A DNA stretch of 64,000 nt from Porphyromonadaceae bacterium (GCA_021372865.1 JAJFTO010000017.1:186001-250000); one strand, 5' to 3'. Shown: positions 25,592 through 59,328, counted from the stretch's first letter. Notes: a model not told the origin generated them from the sequence alone. Program-made: numbers and translations.

Positions 25592-25650
25592 AGGAATTTG
25601 TTTTTAGCATTTTTTTCTGTGGTTGCAAGCAGTTCAAATCTGTCCACATG
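25592..25650 (-). ncRNA. Probable SAM-II (SAM-alpha) riboswitch in the metK leader
   Basis: Read on the minus strand, the leader has a P1 stem TGTGG (25648-25644) with CCACA (25622-25618). Inside it is GATTTGAACTGCTTGCAA. After it, an A-rich joiner leads to GCTAAAAA (25608-25601). This order and these words match the SAM-II pseudoknot (P1, GATTT-A, TTGCAA, then GCTAAAA). The aptamer lies about 140 bases before the metK ATG and just after a -7-like box. Recognition is by eye from memory of the consensus; a covariance search is needed. Confidence 0.75.
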
Positions 25651-25664
25651 GTTTGAATTGGTGG

Positions 25665-51236: not shown

Positions 51237-51440
51237 AGAGCCTGTCTCAAAATAAAAATTAATCTTCAGAGAAATGAATGTCTGAATTTGTTCTCAAACA
51301 GGTCTCCGAATAGAAAGAGGGTGTAATCACGTTGAACCGACCCCCAAAAGTTAGACAAAATACTTTTGGGGGTTATTTTTATGTCTAAACACACGTTTGA
51401 AAAGAAATTATCTATTGTATTCTGTGATACACCCTCTTTT
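51237..51440. mobile_element. IS debris with nested inverted repeats
   Basis: AAAGAGGGTGTAATCAC (51314-51330) and GTGATACACCCTCTTTT (51424-51440) form a near-perfect outer inverted repeat with one base inserted. Inside it ACCCCCAAAAGT (51340-51351) and ACTTTTGGGGGT (51362-51373) form a perfect 12-base inner dyad with a 10-base loop, followed by TTATTTTT. The inner end and the short transposase frame resemble the left end of an IS3-family element. GAGCCTGTCTCAAAA at 51238 resembles another IS end. The rest of the gap to 51558 shows nothing clear. Confidence 0.6.
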
Positions 51441-51470
51441 TTGGTTAAATTGGTATCCAGTCTGTAGTAA
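51381..51470 (+). pseudogene. Truncated IS3-type orfA fragment
   Basis: ATG at 51381 opens MSKHTFEKKLSIV, which looks like the start of an IS3-family OrfA. It then runs into the outer inverted repeat and stops at TAG after about 30 codons. Only the first 13 codons look like transposase, so it is a remnant. Confidence 0.5.
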
Positions 51471-51558: not shown

Positions 51559-52392
51559 TTAATATGCAAGACCCTCATACTTCTGATAGGCTTTTTCCAA
51601 TTTTGTATCATAGCGATTCTGTCTGTAACCCGACCCGTTATATCGTTCAGCAAATCCAGCCCACTGTTTGGAGGCCAGTAACGGAATCAGCCCGTTTACC
51701 CGAAGAAACCGACCAAAAGCGTCGAGATGCTCTCTCTCATGCAGGTGCATCCGGTCCACGAAATCATATACATCATTGTAACCGAGGCTCACTGCATGGT
51801 ATCCCATTATCTGAAAAGAGCCCCACGATGCAGCAGAGAACGCGGCTTCCCGGAAAATATCACTTCCTGATATTTGTATTGCTTTTTGAAGCCGGTCATA
51901 TTCTCTTACACCTCCCAGATAATAATTTTTTGTCCATCTCTCATAGAGTACATCCTGGTTGTCCGCATTCATAAACTGTTGTGGATTGATGCCTCGTTTC
52001 TCCAGTTCACGAAAAAAAATATGACCTTCGAATAAGATTATCGGTTTGCCATTCATCAGAAATCCTTTGCCACCACTCTCAACCTCGTTTACGGCTTTGA
52101 CTACGGTCAGCTCCAATCCGAAATTTCTCGCAAAGTCAACCAGATCGGATTCAGAGAGTAATTTATCATTTTGACTGATTATCTCAGGAGACAGCTCATA
52201 TAGTTTTTGCCACGTTTTGGGACCTGCAATGCCATCAACGACCAACGAATGATGCCCTTGAAATTGTTTTACAGCTGCGTCGACTTCCAGACTGAATGAG
52301 TCTGATATTTTCACGTTATACCCCAGTTTGTAAAGCATTTCACACAATATTTTCACTTCCGGCGACTTCGAATAATATCTTAATGTTCTCAT
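51559..52392 (-). CDS. N-acetylmuramidase (DUF3380) with peptidoglycan-binding domain
   Basis: A 277-residue protein. The N-terminal part is PG-binding-1-like (ILCEMLYKLGYNVKISDSFSLEVDAAVKQFQGHHSLVVDGIAGPKTWQKLYEL). The C-terminal part is a DUF3380 muramidase domain with VKAVNEVESGGKGFLMNGKPIILFEGHIFFREL (candidate catalytic Glu) and ASWGSFQIMGYHAVSLGY. This is the form of phage Gp110-type endolysins. It has no signal peptide, so export would need a holin or other route. It follows the RGWF protein gene by 15 bases on the same strand, with IS debris downstream. Confidence 0.85.
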   Translation of the reverse strand: MRTLRYYSKSPEVKILCEMLYKLGYNVKISDSFSLEVDAAVKQFQGHHSLVVDGIAGPKTWQKLYELSPEIISQNDKLLSESDLVDFARNFGLELTVVKAVNEVESGGKGFLMNGKPIILFEGHIFFRELEKRGINPQQFMNADNQDVLYERWTKNYYLGGVREYDRLQKAIQISGSDIFREAAFSAASWGSFQIMGYHAVSLGYNDVYDFVDRMHLHEREHLDAFGRFLRVNGLIPLLASKQWAGFAERYNGSGYRQNRYDTKLEKAYQKYEGLAY

Positions 52393-52407
52393 TTTTTTGA
52401 TTTTTAT

Positions 52408-54210
52408 TTATTGGGGCATTTTGGGTATACGCTCACAAACCATTCCTACCAGAAAATAGGATTTGAACTTCACCTCTTCACGGTCCATAGAAAAAGTAAG
52501 TGTGACGGGATTGGCGTTTTCCAATCTAAAATTTTTAATCAACGCCTTATACCCATCAGCCCGCATTTCCATTTCAAAACTTCCGACTGGTATGGTGACT
52601 GAGATTTGTCCGTTTTGATCTGTTTCCACTTCATAAACACGGCTATTATCGGTTCCTTTGACTGAGAGGGAACATTTATATATCCCTTTCCCGGAATTAC
52701 TGTCGTGGATATTAAAAAATACCCGGGAGGCCTGCTCAATCTGATTCACATAAATTTTAGTAAACAACCCGCCTCCTTTGAATGGAAGCATTTCCAAAGA
52801 CAACGCCTCTCGATTCGGCCCGGCACTTTCCATTGATGGGGATTCTCTCCCCGGGAGATTTACCGCCATGGGTTTCATCCTCCGGTAGAAAGGTATGCTC
52901 CTTGTCCTGATGGCCGATTCTGCAATGCCGGAATCCTCTTTCATCGGCTTTTCAGGGAGAGTGTGAGTCTCCGCCACATCGGCTTTGCGGATCATGTAAT
53001 TCAGCTGATCCGACCTGATTGTTCCTTTGTTGGTCACAGTTTTCAGAAATTTTTGTTTGGTCCTGTCATTTATAAAAAGCTGCTGCTTGAGAATCACAGG
53101 ACCAAAATGAATGAGCTGGTCCTGGTTAATTACCTGATCCTCCGAGATTGCATCGACAAGATTAATCTTCAGATTTTTCACCAGCAGCATTACTTTGGGA
53201 AAAGCCGGAAGTTTAAAATCTGTCGATATTGTCTCACCGTCAGAGATAGGCTGCGATTCATTCCACTGAAAACAGGTGGAGCTGAATATCTGTTTATTGA
53301 ACCATCCTCTCTTGAGATGGATGAAAGCGTAATCAAACTCAATACTTTCAATATATTGTTCGTCATATTCAATATCCAGAATTTGTGCAGGCAAGTGTTG
53401 CGAATCAGCTTTAGCCTTCGTGAAAAGTGATTCCATCTCATTTTTATCAAGGAAAAGATTGCGCCAGCCAGATTCATTTTCCATGAAATCGTACGGTATA
53501 AAATGGATGTCGTGAATTGCTGAAAGTGCAGTAACATCTGTTTTTTCGGAAGCATCGAAATAGTTCTTTACCGATTGAAACAAATCGAGGAAGCGATCTG
53601 TTTCCGATAATTTGTTTTGTACCTGCAAAGCCTCCTCAATAAATTCCTTATTACCTTTAATTTTCCAGTTTGCCAACGCCATATCTTTTTTCAAGGTGAT
53701 CAAGGTGAGCTGATCTGACCAGTTCCTTTTTTCCTCTTCGGTCATCTTTTCATCAAACTGAGCCAGATGATCTTCTATGAAAGTCAACTGCTTTTCATAC
53801 TCTTTCATATGTTTGACATATGCCTTATACTCCGGCGTTTCCTTCCCGTCCCTAATCAATTTATCATTTTCGGAAGCCAGGAGTGTCTCCAAACCCTGCT
53901 CCAGGTCCTTTACACCTGCGTAGTTGAGAATTTCTCTATATGCGTCAAACAACGTATTGTTTGGGTTAAGATCCCAGTACTTATCGGAAGAAGGAAGAGA
54001 ATTCAGTTCGTAGGAGACCTGCTGTTTCTTCAGTATGGAGCCTGCGATCTGGGAAGGATCTGTTATCAGACTCAGCGGTTTAAGCAAGGTAAGATCTTCC
54101 ATCTCATAGAGACGAAGTGAGGGACAGAGCAAAACCAGATCATTTACCTTTGAGCTCTCCGAAAAATAAATTTCCTTCAGTTTTTGGTATAATGCAATAT
54201 AATATTTCAT
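52408..54210 (-). CDS. Uncharacterised RGWF-domain protein with carboxypeptidase-regulatory-like domain
   Basis: About 600 residues, no signal peptide. An N-terminal helical half (residues 1-230, charged) precedes a beta-rich region with YAFIHLKRGWFNKQIFSSTCFQWNES and DGETISTDFKLPAFPKVMLLVKNLKI near 300-350. A carboxypeptidase-regulatory-like sandwich (YEVETDQNGQISVTIPVGSFEMEMRADGY) sits near 520-570. The tail YFLVGMVCERIPKMPQ resembles the neighbouring protein's CYIIGYKCHIVPKSP. I start at ATG 54210; the longer frame begins with TTG at the -7 box. The family is not recognised. Confidence 0.75.
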   Translation of the reverse strand: MKYYIALYQKLKEIYFSESSKVNDLVLLCPSLRLYEMEDLTLLKPLSLITDPSQIAGSILKKQQVSYELNSLPSSDKYWDLNPNNTLFDAYREILNYAGVKDLEQGLETLLASENDKLIRDGKETPEYKAYVKHMKEYEKQLTFIEDHLAQFDEKMTEEEKRNWSDQLTLITLKKDMALANWKIKGNKEFIEEALQVQNKLSETDRFLDLFQSVKNYFDASEKTDVTALSAIHDIHFIPYDFMENESGWRNLFLDKNEMESLFTKAKADSQHLPAQILDIEYDEQYIESIEFDYAFIHLKRGWFNKQIFSSTCFQWNESQPISDGETISTDFKLPAFPKVMLLVKNLKINLVDAISEDQVINQDQLIHFGPVILKQQLFINDRTKQKFLKTVTNKGTIRSDQLNYMIRKADVAETHTLPEKPMKEDSGIAESAIRTRSIPFYRRMKPMAVNLPGRESPSMESAGPNREALSLEMLPFKGGGLFTKIYVNQIEQASRVFFNIHDSNSGKGIYKCSLSVKGTDNSRVYEVETDQNGQISVTIPVGSFEMEMRADGYKALIKNFRLENANPVTLTFSMDREEVKFKSYFLVGMVCERIPKMPQ

Positions 54211-54231
54211 ACGATAAAAATTATTTATTTT

Positions 54232-54239
54232 CAAATGTA
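54232..54239 (-). promoter_or_regulatory. -7 box for the RGWF protein/muramidase run
   Basis: TACATTTG on the minus strand lies 21 bases before the ATG at 54210. No TTTG at -33. Confidence 0.5.
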
Positions 54240-54330
54240 TCGTATGGAACTCGCTTTAATCATCTACTTGTATGATAATGATTATCATGCTCGTTTCATA
54301 TGATCCGCTGTCATTATAATTTATAACAAA

Positions 54331-54360
54331 GCGTGCCGCCATACTTACTGTGCGGCACGC
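54331..54360 (-). terminator. Terminator after the second RGWF protein gene
   Basis: GCGTGCCGC and GCGGCACGC form a perfect 9-base stem around a 12-base loop. On the minus strand a T-rich tract (TTTGTTATAAATT) follows. It lies 18 bases after the stop at 54378, so the two RGWF genes are separate transcripts. Confidence 0.85.
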
Positions 54361-54377
54361 CACTGAGTTCGAATATT

Positions 54378-55985
54378 TTATTCGGACTTTCCATCCGTCC
54401 ATTTAGTTATTGCAGGATTTGGATTGGGCGATTTGGGTACAATATGACATTTGTATCCGATAATATAACACCCGGGTGACAGCAGATCTTTTCCTTTGAA
54501 ACTTGCGTCGATGTGTGATTCCTGGTTCTCATAACTGTAACCTCCACCCAGGACAAAGGGACCGATCCCCACCACTCCTCCGGCATTCACATAATCTTTG
54601 GTAAACTTTGTACTGGTGGTGCTGTCCCCAAATCGCATGACGACATCTTTCGCGATAATCAGTTCAGTGATGATAGAAGGCATCAGCCCATCTTTGTCGT
54701 TTCCTGAACTTATCGTATCTCCGTTCAGTTCCTGCGGCGAGTTTTCATGCAGTTTCCAGTATTTTGATTCCACGAACTCCTGGCTGAACCATCCCCTTTC
54801 TACCCTTACTTTTCCCAATTTGAAAGAGATATATACGTTGCTCATATCAATCTCTGATTCCCGTTTCTGATGTTCTCCGCCCCCTCTTGCTCCGATGGAG
54901 AAGATTCCCAAATTTAAGCCCAGACCGGCTTTCCATTTGTGGGTGGTACTGGAGGAATCGTAACTGAATTCCCGTTCATTCAGGACGATGGTGGGCCAGT
55001 TTTTAGATTCTGTCATCACTCCGGCCGGAATGGGAATAGAAGGCGAATAGTTGATGTAATCCAGAATGCGGGTACGCTGGCTGTTCCGAAACTCCGACTG
55101 CAACCGTTTCTTGATCACAAGCATGTGTTTTTCTTCTATTTCACTCAGATAATTCTGAATCCGCTCTACCCCTTCTTTATAGCCAAGCGACTGCCATGCT
55201 TTCAGAGCCATATCTTCCCGTTTCTTCATGTTTTTTCCGTCAATGGAAAGTTGAGCCATGGCATCGGGATCTCCGTTATCTGCAGCGACCCTCACTTCGT
55301 TGTTCTTTTCCACCTCTGCATAGTACTTCATTTCGTACTCCACGTACTTTGCATACATGGGTGAAACAAATGAATGTACAATCTCAGGCTGATTGGTGTC
55401 GTCGATGGGTAACGTCTCATCAAAATCGGGATTCTTGATTTTCTTAATCTTGAAAAGTTTGTTACGCAATGAATCGAGTTTCTTCTCCACCTTGGCATCC
55501 ATGGGAGTATCCACCACCACCGACCATTGCAGCAGATCTTCATAAACCTTTGACACTCTTTTGCTGGAGTCGTTGAAAATCGTCACCTGCCGTCCGTTCT
55601 TTCCCTCCACCATGGATGGAATCCGGGATGGTATGGCATCCACCATCGCTGCAAATTGTTCCATTTGGAGGTATCTTCGGAACTTGTTTTCCGCCAGTAA
55701 ATTTTTGTATCCTTCCATGTCGATGACTGGATTACCGTTTTTATCCAGGATTGGTTTTCCATCTTTATCGAGCTCTGGTTTTGGAGAAGGAGCTGAGCCA
55801 AAAAGTCCTTTCAGTGCGAAATCGAAAGTATCCTCGGTCAATACAATTCCTATCGGATCAAAGGCGATAAAATCATTAGGCCCCACAGAATCGGGATCTC
55901 CCCCGTTGGTAATAGTATCATATACCTGCTTTAGCAGCATACTCATCAGCGAGTTTGATCGGGCTTCATCAATTAATTTTGCCAT
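54378..55985 (-). CDS. Uncharacterised RGWF-domain protein
   Basis: A 535-residue protein without signal peptide. Residues 1-220 are mixed helical and acidic (includes VGPNDFIAFDPIGIVLTEDTFDFALKG). The beta-rich part has VYISFKLGKVRVERGWFSQEFVESKYWKLHENS near 385-420, then NGDTISSGNDKDGLMPSIITELIIAKDVVMRFG near 425-457, and the tail CYIIGYKCHIVPKSP near 506-522. These three blocks line up in order with the next gene's product, so the two are distant paralogues. I do not recognise the family. A TACGTTTG -7-like box is at 56057-56064. Confidence 0.75.
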   Translation of the reverse strand: MAKLIDEARSNSLMSMLLKQVYDTITNGGDPDSVGPNDFIAFDPIGIVLTEDTFDFALKGLFGSAPSPKPELDKDGKPILDKNGNPVIDMEGYKNLLAENKFRRYLQMEQFAAMVDAIPSRIPSMVEGKNGRQVTIFNDSSKRVSKVYEDLLQWSVVVDTPMDAKVEKKLDSLRNKLFKIKKIKNPDFDETLPIDDTNQPEIVHSFVSPMYAKYVEYEMKYYAEVEKNNEVRVAADNGDPDAMAQLSIDGKNMKKREDMALKAWQSLGYKEGVERIQNYLSEIEEKHMLVIKKRLQSEFRNSQRTRILDYINYSPSIPIPAGVMTESKNWPTIVLNEREFSYDSSSTTHKWKAGLGLNLGIFSIGARGGGEHQKRESEIDMSNVYISFKLGKVRVERGWFSQEFVESKYWKLHENSPQELNGDTISSGNDKDGLMPSIITELIIAKDVVMRFGDSTTSTKFTKDYVNAGGVVGIGPFVLGGGYSYENQESHIDASFKGKDLLSPGCYIIGYKCHIVPKSPNPNPAITKWTDGKSE

Positions 55986-56279
55986 AACTTTATTTTTTTT
56001 GGATTACGCATACTCTATACAGTTTTCTGCATCCCTGATCAGCGCATTTAAGACGACAAACGTAGCAGATATCGTAAATAAATGTTAGGATTATTTTTTC
56101 AAAAAATTGGATGAATCAAGCATTAACAATTGAGCCAATTTGTGTTATTCTCGCACAACGGCCATTTATATATCTGATAATCAAACGATATATAAACCAA
56201 AACCGAAACGGAATATACAATTTGAAGAAGATGGGGAATAGTCAGGTTGCTCCTTGTTTAACGGATGACAGATACAGCA
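55986..56279. other. Intergenic gap without recognised content
   Basis: About 290 A/T-rich bases between the second RGWF gene and the hybrid regulator gene. Apart from the -7-like box at 56057-56064 I see no supported gene or structure. Confidence 0.6.
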
Positions 56280-59135
56280 TTACATCGGTAAACGCCGGTA
56301 TTGGGAGGGAGACACGTGTGTTAGTTTTTTAAAAATACGGGAAAAATAGGCCAGATCATAAAAACCACATTCTTCGGCAATCTGACCAATCGGTTTATCT
56401 CCCGATGCAAGTTTCTTTTTGGCACAGTTCACACGCAGATTCATGATAAATAAGGACGGCGTATAACCGGATACTGCACTCAGTTTTCTGTTGAGTTGCG
56501 AAGGGCTGACACAGAGTCTTTCGGCCAGAGTTACCGTGGAGAAATGAGAATTCTGCATTTCGCTGTACACGATATCCGTAGCTTTTTGCAGGAATTCCAT
56601 ACCGGCATCTTTTTCCCCTGACACGTCACCTTTTAGAATTGCCCGCATGTATTTTTCCTTGAGTAAACGGCGGTTTTCTATCAGGGTTTCAATCTGTATT
56701 AAAAGTTCATTCAGATGAAAAGGTTTACGTATATATGCATCTGCGCCCTGTTGCAATCCTTTCAACCGGTCCTCCTGTGTACCTTTTGCAGTAAGTAGGA
56801 TCACCGGAATATGATTCAACAACATAGATGTGCGAATCTCCCTGCAGAGAGTAAGCCCGTCTTTGTTGGGCATCATGATATCGGAAATAATGATGTCAGG
56901 CATCAGTTCACTGGCACGCTCCAACCCTTCAACACCGTCACGTTCGGCAAACACGTTGTAGCGGGCAGAAAGCAGGGCTTTAATATAGAGTACCACGTCC
57001 TCGTTGTCTTCTATAATCAGGATCGTAGATCTCCGGTCAATTCCTGTAATTGGTTCTCCGTAATGTGACTCATTTGATGCTGTGCCGGGGTATCCTATTT
57101 CCGGGATTACCCTGACAGGTGAAAAAATTTCGGGCTGATGAATTTTCCAGAGAGGCAGATTGGCCTCGATTGACTGCCGGAGAGGTAACGTAATCGTAAA
57201 TATGGTTCCTTGTCCTTCCTCACTTTCTGCCTCAATTTTTCCATGCATCATTTCTACCAGCTGTCGGCAATAACTTAAGCCAATTCCGCTTCCGTTATTT
57301 TTATCAGATTGCGTTCCCTGGTAAAAAAGATCAAAAATATGTTCTATCTCCTGCTTCGATATCCCCTTTCCATGATCAGCCACTGTTAGGATCACATCTT
57401 TCTGTTTCAGGGTGACAAGTTGAATGGAAATATTGCTGCCGGGGTGACTGAATTTGATGGCATTTGACAACAGGTTCTGCATTATATCGTCCATATAATA
57501 GGAAACGAAATCCATCTCTATGATCGCTTCATTATAGGTGAAAATTAACTGAATATTCTTGCTTTTAGCGTATAGCCGAAAAGAATCTATTATCATCTGC
57601 AGGTAGACAACAATGTTCCCTTTCTGCCACTCAGGCGTATCTAATCCTGCATTGATCCTGGACATACTCAGCAATTGATTTACCAGTGACAGCAAATGTG
57701 CGCCCTGTCTGTCGATTGCTTTCAGATACGATTTCGTTTCGGCCAGAGAGAGATATTTCTCATTCTGCATGTGATTGCTCAGACCCAGAATAACGGTAAG
57801 CGGAGTTCTGAATTCATGTGTCACGTTGGTGAAAAAATTTGTCCGTATACGGTTTAAATTCCGGAGAATCTTGTTGCTTTTTGTGCGTTGAAGGTATGCA
57901 TACATGAGCGTAATCAGCAAAAGAATCAACAATACGACGAAGATAAAGGATGCATACAGAATGGTCCTTTTCTGACTGGTCTCCATTTCGTTTCTCAGAT
58001 TCAGTTCTGATATGAAGTGCCTGTTTTTATCCCGTTCATATTTTAATCGCATGTCGGTTACCTTATTAAGTTTCTCAATATTCTGGATGCTATCCTGAAA
58101 TGCCATGCTGATCTTGTAATCGTTCAGTGCTCCTGCAAAGTTTCCCATCCCCAGGTGATATTCATGCAGTAAATTATATACTTTAGAGAGATGTTCCGGT
58201 GAATGAATTTCGTTAGCAGCTTCTTTTGCCAGTTCTATATACTCTTTCGATTCTGCAAAATCGCCTTTCAGCAGATTTATGCGTGCTAACGCCAGCGTAG
58301 CTTCCAGCCAGTGCCATGTATCAGTAAGATCGTTCATTATATCGTAAGCCAGCAAATAAGTATGTTCTGCTTTATCATATAGATGTTGCAGTTCATAGAT
58401 ATATCCGATATGAATATGGCATAAACCTATACCCATCAGTGATTTTGCCTGCACATTATGTTCCATGGAACGCTGATAATAGAAGAAAGCAGAATCGTAC
58501 ATCTGTTTTTCTTCGAAGATAGCACCCAAGTTTGCATAATTAATAGCCTGCCCCACATGACTATTTAGTATCTTTTCTTCCTTCAATGCTTCCCGAAACG
58601 ATCTTTCAGCCTCTTCGTAGCTTCCAGCGGAAAGGTATATATTCCCTATACCGTTTATTGCCATTACCCGATTTTTCCGGCCCATGGGTTCATTTCTGAG
58701 AGAAAAGGCTTCTGCCATCTGCAGTGCCTGGTAATGATAATCAGAAGCTTCAGGCAATGCGCCGATTCTTCTGAAATCCGTACCCAAATTATTCAGAGCC
58801 TGTGTAATCCCAATGGTATCTTTAATCTTATAAGCGGACAATAATCCCTGCTGATGATAGGCAATGGCTTTGGAGAAATTGGATGATTCTCGCATTCTTT
58901 CACCCAGTTCTTTGTAAAATACAGACATAGCCAGTTCATCTCTTTCGCTGTTGCTTTTTTTTAATAAAATATGAATGGAGTCGATTGAAAAATGATCTTG
59001 TGAAATTCTCTCTTCCAGTTTTTTTTTCTCTGCACTGGAAAATTCCTGTATATTTCCATCCGGATTGCAGGAAATAAGCAATAAGGTGAGGTTCAGGAAT
59101 ACCCATAGATTAATATGTTTCAACCGTAAGCACAT
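56280..59135 (-). CDS. Hybrid two-component regulator (TPR sensor, histidine kinase, receiver, AraC)
   Basis: About 951 residues. A lipoprotein-like signal (LNLTLLLISC) is followed by TPR repeats over residues 80-380, then a TM helix near 390-415. The HisKA phospho-acceptor His is in NVTHEFRTPLTVIL near 438, the ATPase has NLLSNAIKFSH and DHGKGISKQE, the receiver has DIIISDIMMPNKDG near 750, and the AraC HTH lies near 855-950. It differs from glycan HTCS proteins by TPRs instead of beta-propellers. I start at ATG 59135, because the ATG at 59180 precedes the -7 box. Confidence 0.9.
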   Translation of the reverse strand: MCLRLKHINLWVFLNLTLLLISCNPDGNIQEFSSAEKKKLEERISQDHFSIDSIHILLKKSNSERDELAMSVFYKELGERMRESSNFSKAIAYHQQGLLSAYKIKDTIGITQALNNLGTDFRRIGALPEASDYHYQALQMAEAFSLRNEPMGRKNRVMAINGIGNIYLSAGSYEEAERSFREALKEEKILNSHVGQAINYANLGAIFEEKQMYDSAFFYYQRSMEHNVQAKSLMGIGLCHIHIGYIYELQHLYDKAEHTYLLAYDIMNDLTDTWHWLEATLALARINLLKGDFAESKEYIELAKEAANEIHSPEHLSKVYNLLHEYHLGMGNFAGALNDYKISMAFQDSIQNIEKLNKVTDMRLKYERDKNRHFISELNLRNEMETSQKRTILYASFIFVVLLILLLITLMYAYLQRTKSNKILRNLNRIRTNFFTNVTHEFRTPLTVILGLSNHMQNEKYLSLAETKSYLKAIDRQGAHLLSLVNQLLSMSRINAGLDTPEWQKGNIVVYLQMIIDSFRLYAKSKNIQLIFTYNEAIIEMDFVSYYMDDIMQNLLSNAIKFSHPGSNISIQLVTLKQKDVILTVADHGKGISKQEIEHIFDLFYQGTQSDKNNGSGIGLSYCRQLVEMMHGKIEAESEEGQGTIFTITLPLRQSIEANLPLWKIHQPEIFSPVRVIPEIGYPGTASNESHYGEPITGIDRRSTILIIEDNEDVVLYIKALLSARYNVFAERDGVEGLERASELMPDIIISDIMMPNKDGLTLCREIRTSMLLNHIPVILLTAKGTQEDRLKGLQQGADAYIRKPFHLNELLIQIETLIENRRLLKEKYMRAILKGDVSGEKDAGMEFLQKATDIVYSEMQNSHFSTVTLAERLCVSPSQLNRKLSAVSGYTPSLFIMNLRVNCAKKKLASGDKPIGQIAEECGFYDLAYFSRIFKKLTHVSPSQYRRLPM

Positions 59136-59151
59136 AAATCTATATTTTGTA

Positions 59152-59159
59152 CAAATATA
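59152..59159 (-). promoter_or_regulatory. -7 box of the hybrid regulator gene
   Basis: TATATTTG on the minus strand lies 16 bases before the ATG at 59135, leaving a very short leader. TTG, not TTTG, stands 18 bases further upstream. Confidence 0.5.
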
Positions 59160-59328
59160 ATTAAAGTTATGAATCTGCAATTTTTTTTCGATTATTTTTA
59201 TAACACAACAAATTAAAAATAAGGGAGTTGTTGTATTTTTTGCACATATTGTTGCAATTTAATGACAACGCCGATCAATGGAAGAAATTCAGGTTATAGG
59301 ATATCACTTCAGTAAAAAAGAACAGGGT

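Follow-up and report, generated by a model that had tools for sequence, protein, structure and literature searches.

The 64,000-nucleotide stretch of DNA from a Porphyromonadaceae bacterium (GCA_021372865.1 JAJFTO010000017.1:186001-250000), referred to below as the window, carries a cassette of three genes: two that encode large related proteins, A and B, and one for a muramidase. A and B found a protein superfamily that has no model among the Pfam, NCBIfam, PHROG and PADLOC collections scanned. The host is a 2.7-Mb metagenome-assembled genome of the Dysgonomonadaceae (G000, contig C18), whose nearest named relatives are Proteiniphilum and Petrimonas. A first-pass annotation, made from the sequence alone, had described two related proteins accompanied by a muramidase, and the three open reading frames were located where it had placed them. 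They are transcribed in the order A, B, muramidase:

54378–55985, minus strand: gene A, 535 amino acids, with a helical N-terminal half, two Gly-rich beta segments and an RGWF block
52408–54210, minus strand: gene B, 600 amino acids, paralogue of A, with its ATG at 54210
51559–52392, minus strand: muramidase (endolysin-like), 277 amino acids, without a signal peptide

B would be 608 amino acids long if started at an upstream TTG. A gap of 167 bp separates A from B, and 15 bp lie between the stop of B and the start of the muramidase gene. Hydropathy analysis revealed no N-terminal signal sequence and no transmembrane helix in any of the three proteins, which agrees with the earlier statement that all of them lack a signal peptide. 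The peak 19-residue hydropathy is 1.26 for A and 1.09 for B, so that neither shows the holin hallmark of at least one transmembrane helix.

A and B are true paralogues. BLASTP aligns them with E=7e-11 and 22% identity across 231 amino acids, and a profile-profile comparison gives E=5.2e-8 with a probability of 94.8%. The shared blocks reported at first pass, namely RGWF, G-[DE]-T-I-S, the next hydrophobic strand and a C-terminal block, keep an unchanged order across orthologues, where the last of them reads [YF]-x-[IL]-[IV]-G-x-x-C-x-x-[IV]-P-K-x-P. The two proteins are similar to each other, and neither clearly matches a known unrelated family: A had no match in the Pfam, NCBIfam, PADLOC or PHROG models, and B had none in the same sets except for a carboxypeptidase-regulatory (transthyretin-like) domain near the C-terminus. 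The segments are as follows:

54801–54995, minus strand: first Gly-rich beta segment of A, residues 331–395, candidate membrane hairpin 1, missing from B
54786–54797, minus strand: RGWF block of A, residues 397–400, W399 being invariant among the A proteins of the superfamily alignment
54441–54677, minus strand: second beta segment of A, residues 437–515, holding GIGPF and the C-terminal IIGYKC strand
53299–53310, minus strand: RGWF block of B, residues 301–304, R301 and W303 being invariant across the B alignment
52471–52740, minus strand: residues 491–580 of B, a carboxypeptidase-regulatory / transthyretin-like beta-sandwich (PF13620, E=2.4e-6)
52414–52464, minus strand: C-terminal block of B, KSYFLVGMVCERIPKMP, the counterpart of the C-terminal strand of A

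Judged by the alignment, independently of any structural model, residues 331–395 of A are beta-periodic, with alternating hydrophobic and polar positions (z 2.3, p 0.016). By the same measure residues 437–515 are weakly beta-periodic (z 1.4, p 0.08), the N-terminal half of A is alpha-periodic, and no beta periodicity was seen in the part of B equivalent to residues 331–395 of A. The interval from a conserved Trp to R-x-W is 67 residues in A versus 25–52 in B for pairs with a clear anchor. B is without the candidate hairpin 1 of A. The second beta segment of A separates the GIGPF strand from the last strand, IIGYKC. In B, the place of this second hairpin is occupied by the transthyretin-like domain, which aligns with 5aq0 in VIA (Z 13.4, root-mean-square deviation (rmsd) 1.4 over 81 residues) and is followed by the last strand FLVGMVC.

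The third gene encodes the signal-less muramidase with a peptidoglycan-binding domain that had been predicted, since the product combines PG_binding_1 (PF01471, E=1.5e-14) with PF11860 (E=8.7e-61). It aligns over the full length with the endolysin AP3gp15 (PDB 5nm7; E=6e-55), matches phrog_1224 with E=4e-86 and has no PADLOC match. Two of its features deserve coordinates:

52201–52365, minus strand: peptidoglycan-binding domain of the muramidase, residues 10–64, from the domain scan
52078–52080, minus strand: codon of E105 of the muramidase, which aligns with the catalytic Glu101 of AP3gp15

The E101A replacement in AP3gp15 causes the loss of 99.4% of activity (PMC5674055). The catalytic Glu of phage endolysins is thus intact in the muramidase. 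Being without a signal peptide, the enzyme needs a hole in the membrane.

This neighbouring enzyme is the strongest functional clue for A and B. A PF11860 muramidase with a peptidoglycan-binding domain is the partner of the pair in the group made up of Chryseobacterium, Kaistella, the Dysgonomonadaceae and genome G057. At loci L049, L112, L113 and L114, which occupy three separate places on the A tree, the partner is an unrelated enzyme with CHAP and PG_binding_1 domains (an amidase), encoded upstream of A. Triads of hydrolase, A and B were found in at least four clades with two unrelated hydrolase types, and inspection by eye revealed no starting signal peptide in the partner hydrolases, whether of the muramidase or the CHAP type. 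A and B are recurrently coupled to peptidoglycan hydrolases without a signal peptide, which belong to two unrelated types. The operon of G057, a complete genome of the same class, additionally contains genes for a caspase-domain protein (PF00656, E=4e-31) and for a trypsin-like protein; together with a 117-amino-acid partial copy of the helical region of A, they lie directly upstream of A (L051 5978–8215).

Profile searches uncovered distant A/B pairs elsewhere in the phylum Bacteroidota, in other families (L048–L051, L080, L081, L112–L115), and also on Acuticoccus, Sinorhizobium, Rhizobium and Neorhizobium plasmids. The members of the superfamily share an N-terminal half that is helical, the motifs R-x-W-[FLM] and S-x-G, a hydrophobic strand with [RK]-[ND]-[LV] at its end, a GPF strand and, at the C-terminus, an [IL]-[IVL]-[GA] strand. 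Most members are paired or in tandem and few are single (L070–L072): A/B pairs occur at all full-length muramidase-type loci and at L049, L050, L080, L081 and L112–L115, and tandem genes on the rhizobial plasmids. The unpaired members, in other Bacteroidota, lie at L072 8009–9376, L070 7592–9754 and L071 1417–2676. Signal-peptide-like N-termini are present in the S. meliloti members and absent from the Bacteroidota members. On the S. meliloti plasmid accessoryA (L046 1742–13565), three tandem homologues with such N-termini stand after a radical SAM gene, with five TIR-domain genes in a row nearby; these surroundings are possibly a defence region. The Acuticoccus homologue is followed by an OmpA-family gene.

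An orthologue search with one genome per species found 36 loci, all in Bacteroidota: three in the Dysgonomonadaceae, about thirty in Chryseobacterium and three in Kaistella, with identities of 67–73% for the Chryseobacterium loci and 45–48% for those of Kaistella. A look for the cluster in other genomes, as proposed at first pass, shows that A, B and the muramidase recur as a set, which is complete in 35 of 35 intact loci; the gene order is the same across orders, without phage genes. Close orthologues are carried by 26 of 118 Chryseobacterium and 4 of 101 Dysgonomonadaceae genomes. Within the window's genus, many relatives have the acetate-kinase gene followed directly by rplI, with no cassette, and four relatives have only a histidine-kinase gene between the two, so that the cassette is an insertion in the window genome. 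In the A tree, A of the window and A of Petrimonas fall with Chryseobacterium, in a clade beginning with Kaistella (support 93/99), which suggests that the cassette was transferred from the Weeksellaceae. The empty sites in the Proteiniphilum relatives and this grouping together indicate that the cassette is accessory and moves; it is a conserved operon of accessory and mobile distribution.

The same data bear on whether the locus is a prophage remnant, with a phage lysis gene lying beside two phage structural genes. Its phrog_1224 match marks the muramidase as an endolysin of phage type, and for this gene the earlier label 'phage-derived' holds. It does not extend to A and B, which match nothing in 50,697 phage records or the PHROGs. 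The genes annotated around the cassette in the window are housekeeping ones, and with the constant, phage-free gene order this makes a prophage remnant highly improbable.

The ratio of nonsynonymous to synonymous substitution rates (dN/dS) is about 0.018 for A, 0.11 for B, which evolves about six times faster, and 0.05–0.07 for the muramidase. Against the same genomes, A is 97% and B 78% identical, and between orders A retains about 70% identity. Two signals seem to concern expression:

54330–54361, minus strand: terminator-like hairpin between A and B
56008–56030, minus strand: 5'-leader element GCAGAAAAC-N5-AGAGTATGC, 22 nt before the start of A, in 21 of 21 aligned loci

A terminator had been placed at the flank of the set; the strong hairpin lies instead between A and B. 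All the muramidase-type genomes that were folded have a hairpin here, its sequence unrelated between them and its z from -3.6 (window) to -8.7; it may act as a partial terminator holding A above B. A near-perfect palindrome resembling a Fur box, ATGATAATGATTATCAT (54272–54288, between A and B), was dropped as a candidate, being present in the window only and absent from the relatives checked.

The 23-nt leader before A (GCN-GAAAAC-N5-AGAGTA-N'GC) varies only in the linker and in a third pair whose changes are compensatory. Of 395 genomes of the phylum, 45 contain it, versus four matches for the reversed control; it is also present in many viral contigs and usually lies 19–22 nt 5' of an ATG. 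Phylum-wide, it precedes very diverse genes (L116–L145 at about 1501–1523; L146–L265); the unpaired L070 gene has the same element immediately before its start. The possibility that the element is new was abandoned: cmscan of the window region gave no convincing match, but a scan of relatives points to the DUF805b RNA (RF02914). The leader is probably a member of this known family. Copies in relatives, among them the Chryseobacterium copy before A, pass the Rfam cut-off (orthologous L140: 36.0 versus 35.6), whereas the window copy, with only 8 bits, falls below it. As most of the tested copies, including that of the window, are below the cut-off, the family looks larger than annotated. The element could serve generally as a leader for translation or mRNA stability.

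These data may be read in terms of a structural role in the assembly of the cell envelope, with A as an abundant polymer former, B as a minor cap or anchor, and the hydrolase opening the wall locally. The strong constraint on A and its conservation between orders would suit such a role, as would the high expression of A that the hairpin after it and the conserved leader suggest, and the OmpA-family gene after the Acuticoccus homologue. However, the distribution of the cassette is patchy and accessory, with empty sites and carriers in a minority of Chryseobacterium genomes, and caspase and trypsin neighbours do not suggest a role in cell structure. On balance, an envelope function is quite unlikely.

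AlphaFold was run on both proteins, as the first-pass annotation had advised, and gave models of low confidence for each, taken as no more than a hint (B: predicted local distance difference test, pLDDT, 50.4). When the weak A model was compared with the PDB by Foldseek, each of the eight matches below E 0.05 was a giant pore former, among them the bacterial gasdermin 8sl0 (E=6.5e-4), RCD-1, pleurotolysin, pneumolysin and GSDMD. In the VIA realignment, the displayed rows that span the beta part are gasdermins (Z 3.5–5.9, the top one over 189 residues); 6cb8 has Z 5.9 with this low-confidence model. The equally weak B model gave no pore-former matches in PDB/VIA, only the transthyretin-like domain. 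A may be a giant pore former of the gasdermin/MACPF/CDC type.

The majority of bacterial gasdermins have an N-terminal cysteine for palmitoylation, and most CDCLs carry an SpII signal. The N-terminus of A, MAKLIDEARSNSLMSMLLKQ, has no nearby cysteine, and no SpII lipoprotein signal was found in the aligned Bacteroidota members. Profile A3 retrieved no gasdermin from the PDB sequences up to E=10, and there is no Pfam gasdermin match. Profiles A3 and A4 gave no match to PDB sequences and no similarity to solved CDCLs. The CDCL motif F/Y-F/Y-Xn-YGR is absent from all rows of alignments A1–A4, the MACPF signature Y/W-G-T/S-H-F/Y-X6-GG was not found in the motif check of the alignments, and PF01289 is not matched by A or B. 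Because A and B fail the sequence tests of gasdermins and CDCLs, they are filed with neither family.

Our tentative interpretation is that the locus may be an accessory lysis cassette acting on its own cell, made up of A and B as pore and adaptor, plus an endolysin. A would be soluble, oligomerise and put two beta-hairpins into the membrane, as the gasdermin/MACPF/CDC giant pores do, thus forming a beta-barrel. B, without the first Gly-rich hairpin and with the transthyretin-like domain in place of the second, would be a minor partner serving to trigger, recruit or place A, with A in excess. The pore would supply the membrane hole by which the muramidase crosses and completes lysis. The likeliest use would be lysis of the producer cell in abortive infection, programmed lysis or the release of contents. 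This would be holin-endolysin logic with other parts, a soluble pore pair standing in for the transmembrane holin beside a cytoplasmic wall hydrolase. The earlier suggestion of a toxin or lysis-linked release system fits insofar as the paralogues are tied to a signal-less hydrolase over long distances and the fold hints agree; the pore itself is a prediction from the weak A model.

A number of observations weigh against self-lysis by an A/B pore. The AlphaFold model of A has low confidence (pLDDT 45.6, predicted template modelling score 0.36), the VIA Z values of its matches are below 8 and the rmsd is mostly 8–12 Å. Viral structures, levivirus maturation proteins, match A at E 9e-5, better than any gasdermin, which implies that long bent sheets match unspecifically and that the fold match of A is not specific. 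The likeness to pore formers is therefore a hint, not a result, and neither A nor B has a sequence match to any pore former. In addition, the extreme constraint on A would be unusual in an accessory toxin. Protease genes stand beside A/B in one clade only, and the pairs of S. meliloti, Rhizobium, L048, L080, L081 and L115 have no adjoining peptidoglycan hydrolase. Finally, the signal-peptide-like starts of the S. meliloti members point to a site of action outside the cytoplasm there.

A more far-reaching version of the self-lysis idea is that A/B represent a further giant beta-pore family, distinct in sequence from gasdermins, MACPF, CDC and CDCL proteins. It would consist of a pore-competent and a pore-incompetent partner wired to a cytoplasmic hydrolase, a chromosomal module of holin-endolysin type that moves horizontally and serves suicide or attack, with caspase/trypsin control in one lineage. 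So comprehensive a picture is somewhat doubtful.

The target could also be other cells. CDCLs are encoded in Bacteroidota as adjacent short and long paralogues, the long one with an extra domain; the long partner binds the membrane as a single molecule, and then short ones assemble the pore (PMC11952106, PMC11169675). By analogy, A and B might be a two-component antibacterial toxin, stored in the cytoplasm, freed by muramidase lysis of some producers or exported, and forming pores in neighbours. The A/B asymmetry resembles the long/short pairs, the terminator-like hairpin would hold B scarce, the S. meliloti homologues have their signal-peptide-like N-termini, and the much faster divergence of B is expected if B meets a variable partner. 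Nevertheless, no Bacteroidota member examined has a signal peptide, no immunity-type gene was seen, and both the CDCL motif and a sequence match to solved CDCLs are missing. We consider this kind of toxin unlikely.

The first-pass annotation had also mentioned a contractile effector set, which is disfavoured. The same genome does contain a contractile-injection locus (contig C10, L105 7314–19000) with a 639-amino-acid sheath, identified by a family match, and tube, spike, PAAR, gpW-like and large baseplate proteins assigned by eye; moreover, that sheath type is present in each of the three carriers of the window's genus. But this locus lies on another contig, unlinked to the cassette, and a Petrimonas carrier is without a sheath. 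In Chryseobacterium, the sheath gene is rarer in carriers (3 of 26, leaving 23 without it) than in non-carriers (47 of 92; Fisher p 2.5e-4, kinship ignored). It is very hard to believe that A, B and the muramidase are the cargo of a contractile injection system.

Upstream of the cassette there is a regulator gene:

56280–59180, minus strand: hybrid two-component regulator (TPR, HisKA, HATPase, receiver, AraC), encoded upstream of A and in the same orientation

Such a regulator is also found 5' of the cassette in the other three Dysgonomonadaceae. It stands before the cassette at two distinct places in the chromosome, those of the window's genus and of Petrimonas (L082 4314–7875), the latter with a gene for an HU-HIG protein between regulator and cassette. 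The regulator may travel with the cassette and regulate it. Of the insertion-sequence debris said to flank the set, only a short start resembling IS3 orfA is present, at about 51380–51460; it matches nothing in Pfam and is not repeated elsewhere in the window. Elsewhere in the window, a SAM-II riboswitch (25594–25653, minus strand; RF01726, 58.5 bits) lies directly 5' of an S-adenosylmethionine synthetase gene, also on the minus strand.

However the cassette works, A and B belong to a superfamily that is widespread, under strong constraint and unmatched by the scanned models. If self-lysis by the cassette is true, bacteria own a lysis kit of two parts, with a soluble pair of pore proteins in the place of the phage holin, and the proposed link between gasdermin pores and the holin-endolysin system becomes directly testable in environmental bacteria.

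Among known systems, bacterial gasdermin operons provide the first comparison. Neighbouring proteases, lysozymes and amidases have been reported for them, and mimicry of holin-endolysin systems has been proposed (PMC9612521). The A/B loci similarly bring together a candidate giant-pore protein, a cell-wall hydrolase and, in one clade, proteases, and gasdermins are the best, though weak, fold match of A. Unlike gasdermins, A has no sequence match to the family, no N-terminal cysteine, about twice the length and a helical N-terminal half; A and B are a paralogue pair, and the window has no protease gene. With CDCLs, the cassette shares a pair of neighbouring, unequally built paralogues in Bacteroidota, of which one has an additional beta domain, whereas A and B are without F/Y-F/Y-Xn-YGR, PF01289 and SpII and are coupled to a peptidoglycan hydrolase. 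Compared with phage holin-endolysin cassettes (AP3gp15, DUF3380/PF11860), A and B are large soluble proteins, not small transmembrane holins, and the operon is chromosomal and accessory; in its N-terminal peptidoglycan-binding domain, catalytic Glu and lack of a signal peptide, however, the muramidase is like the endolysins of these cassettes.
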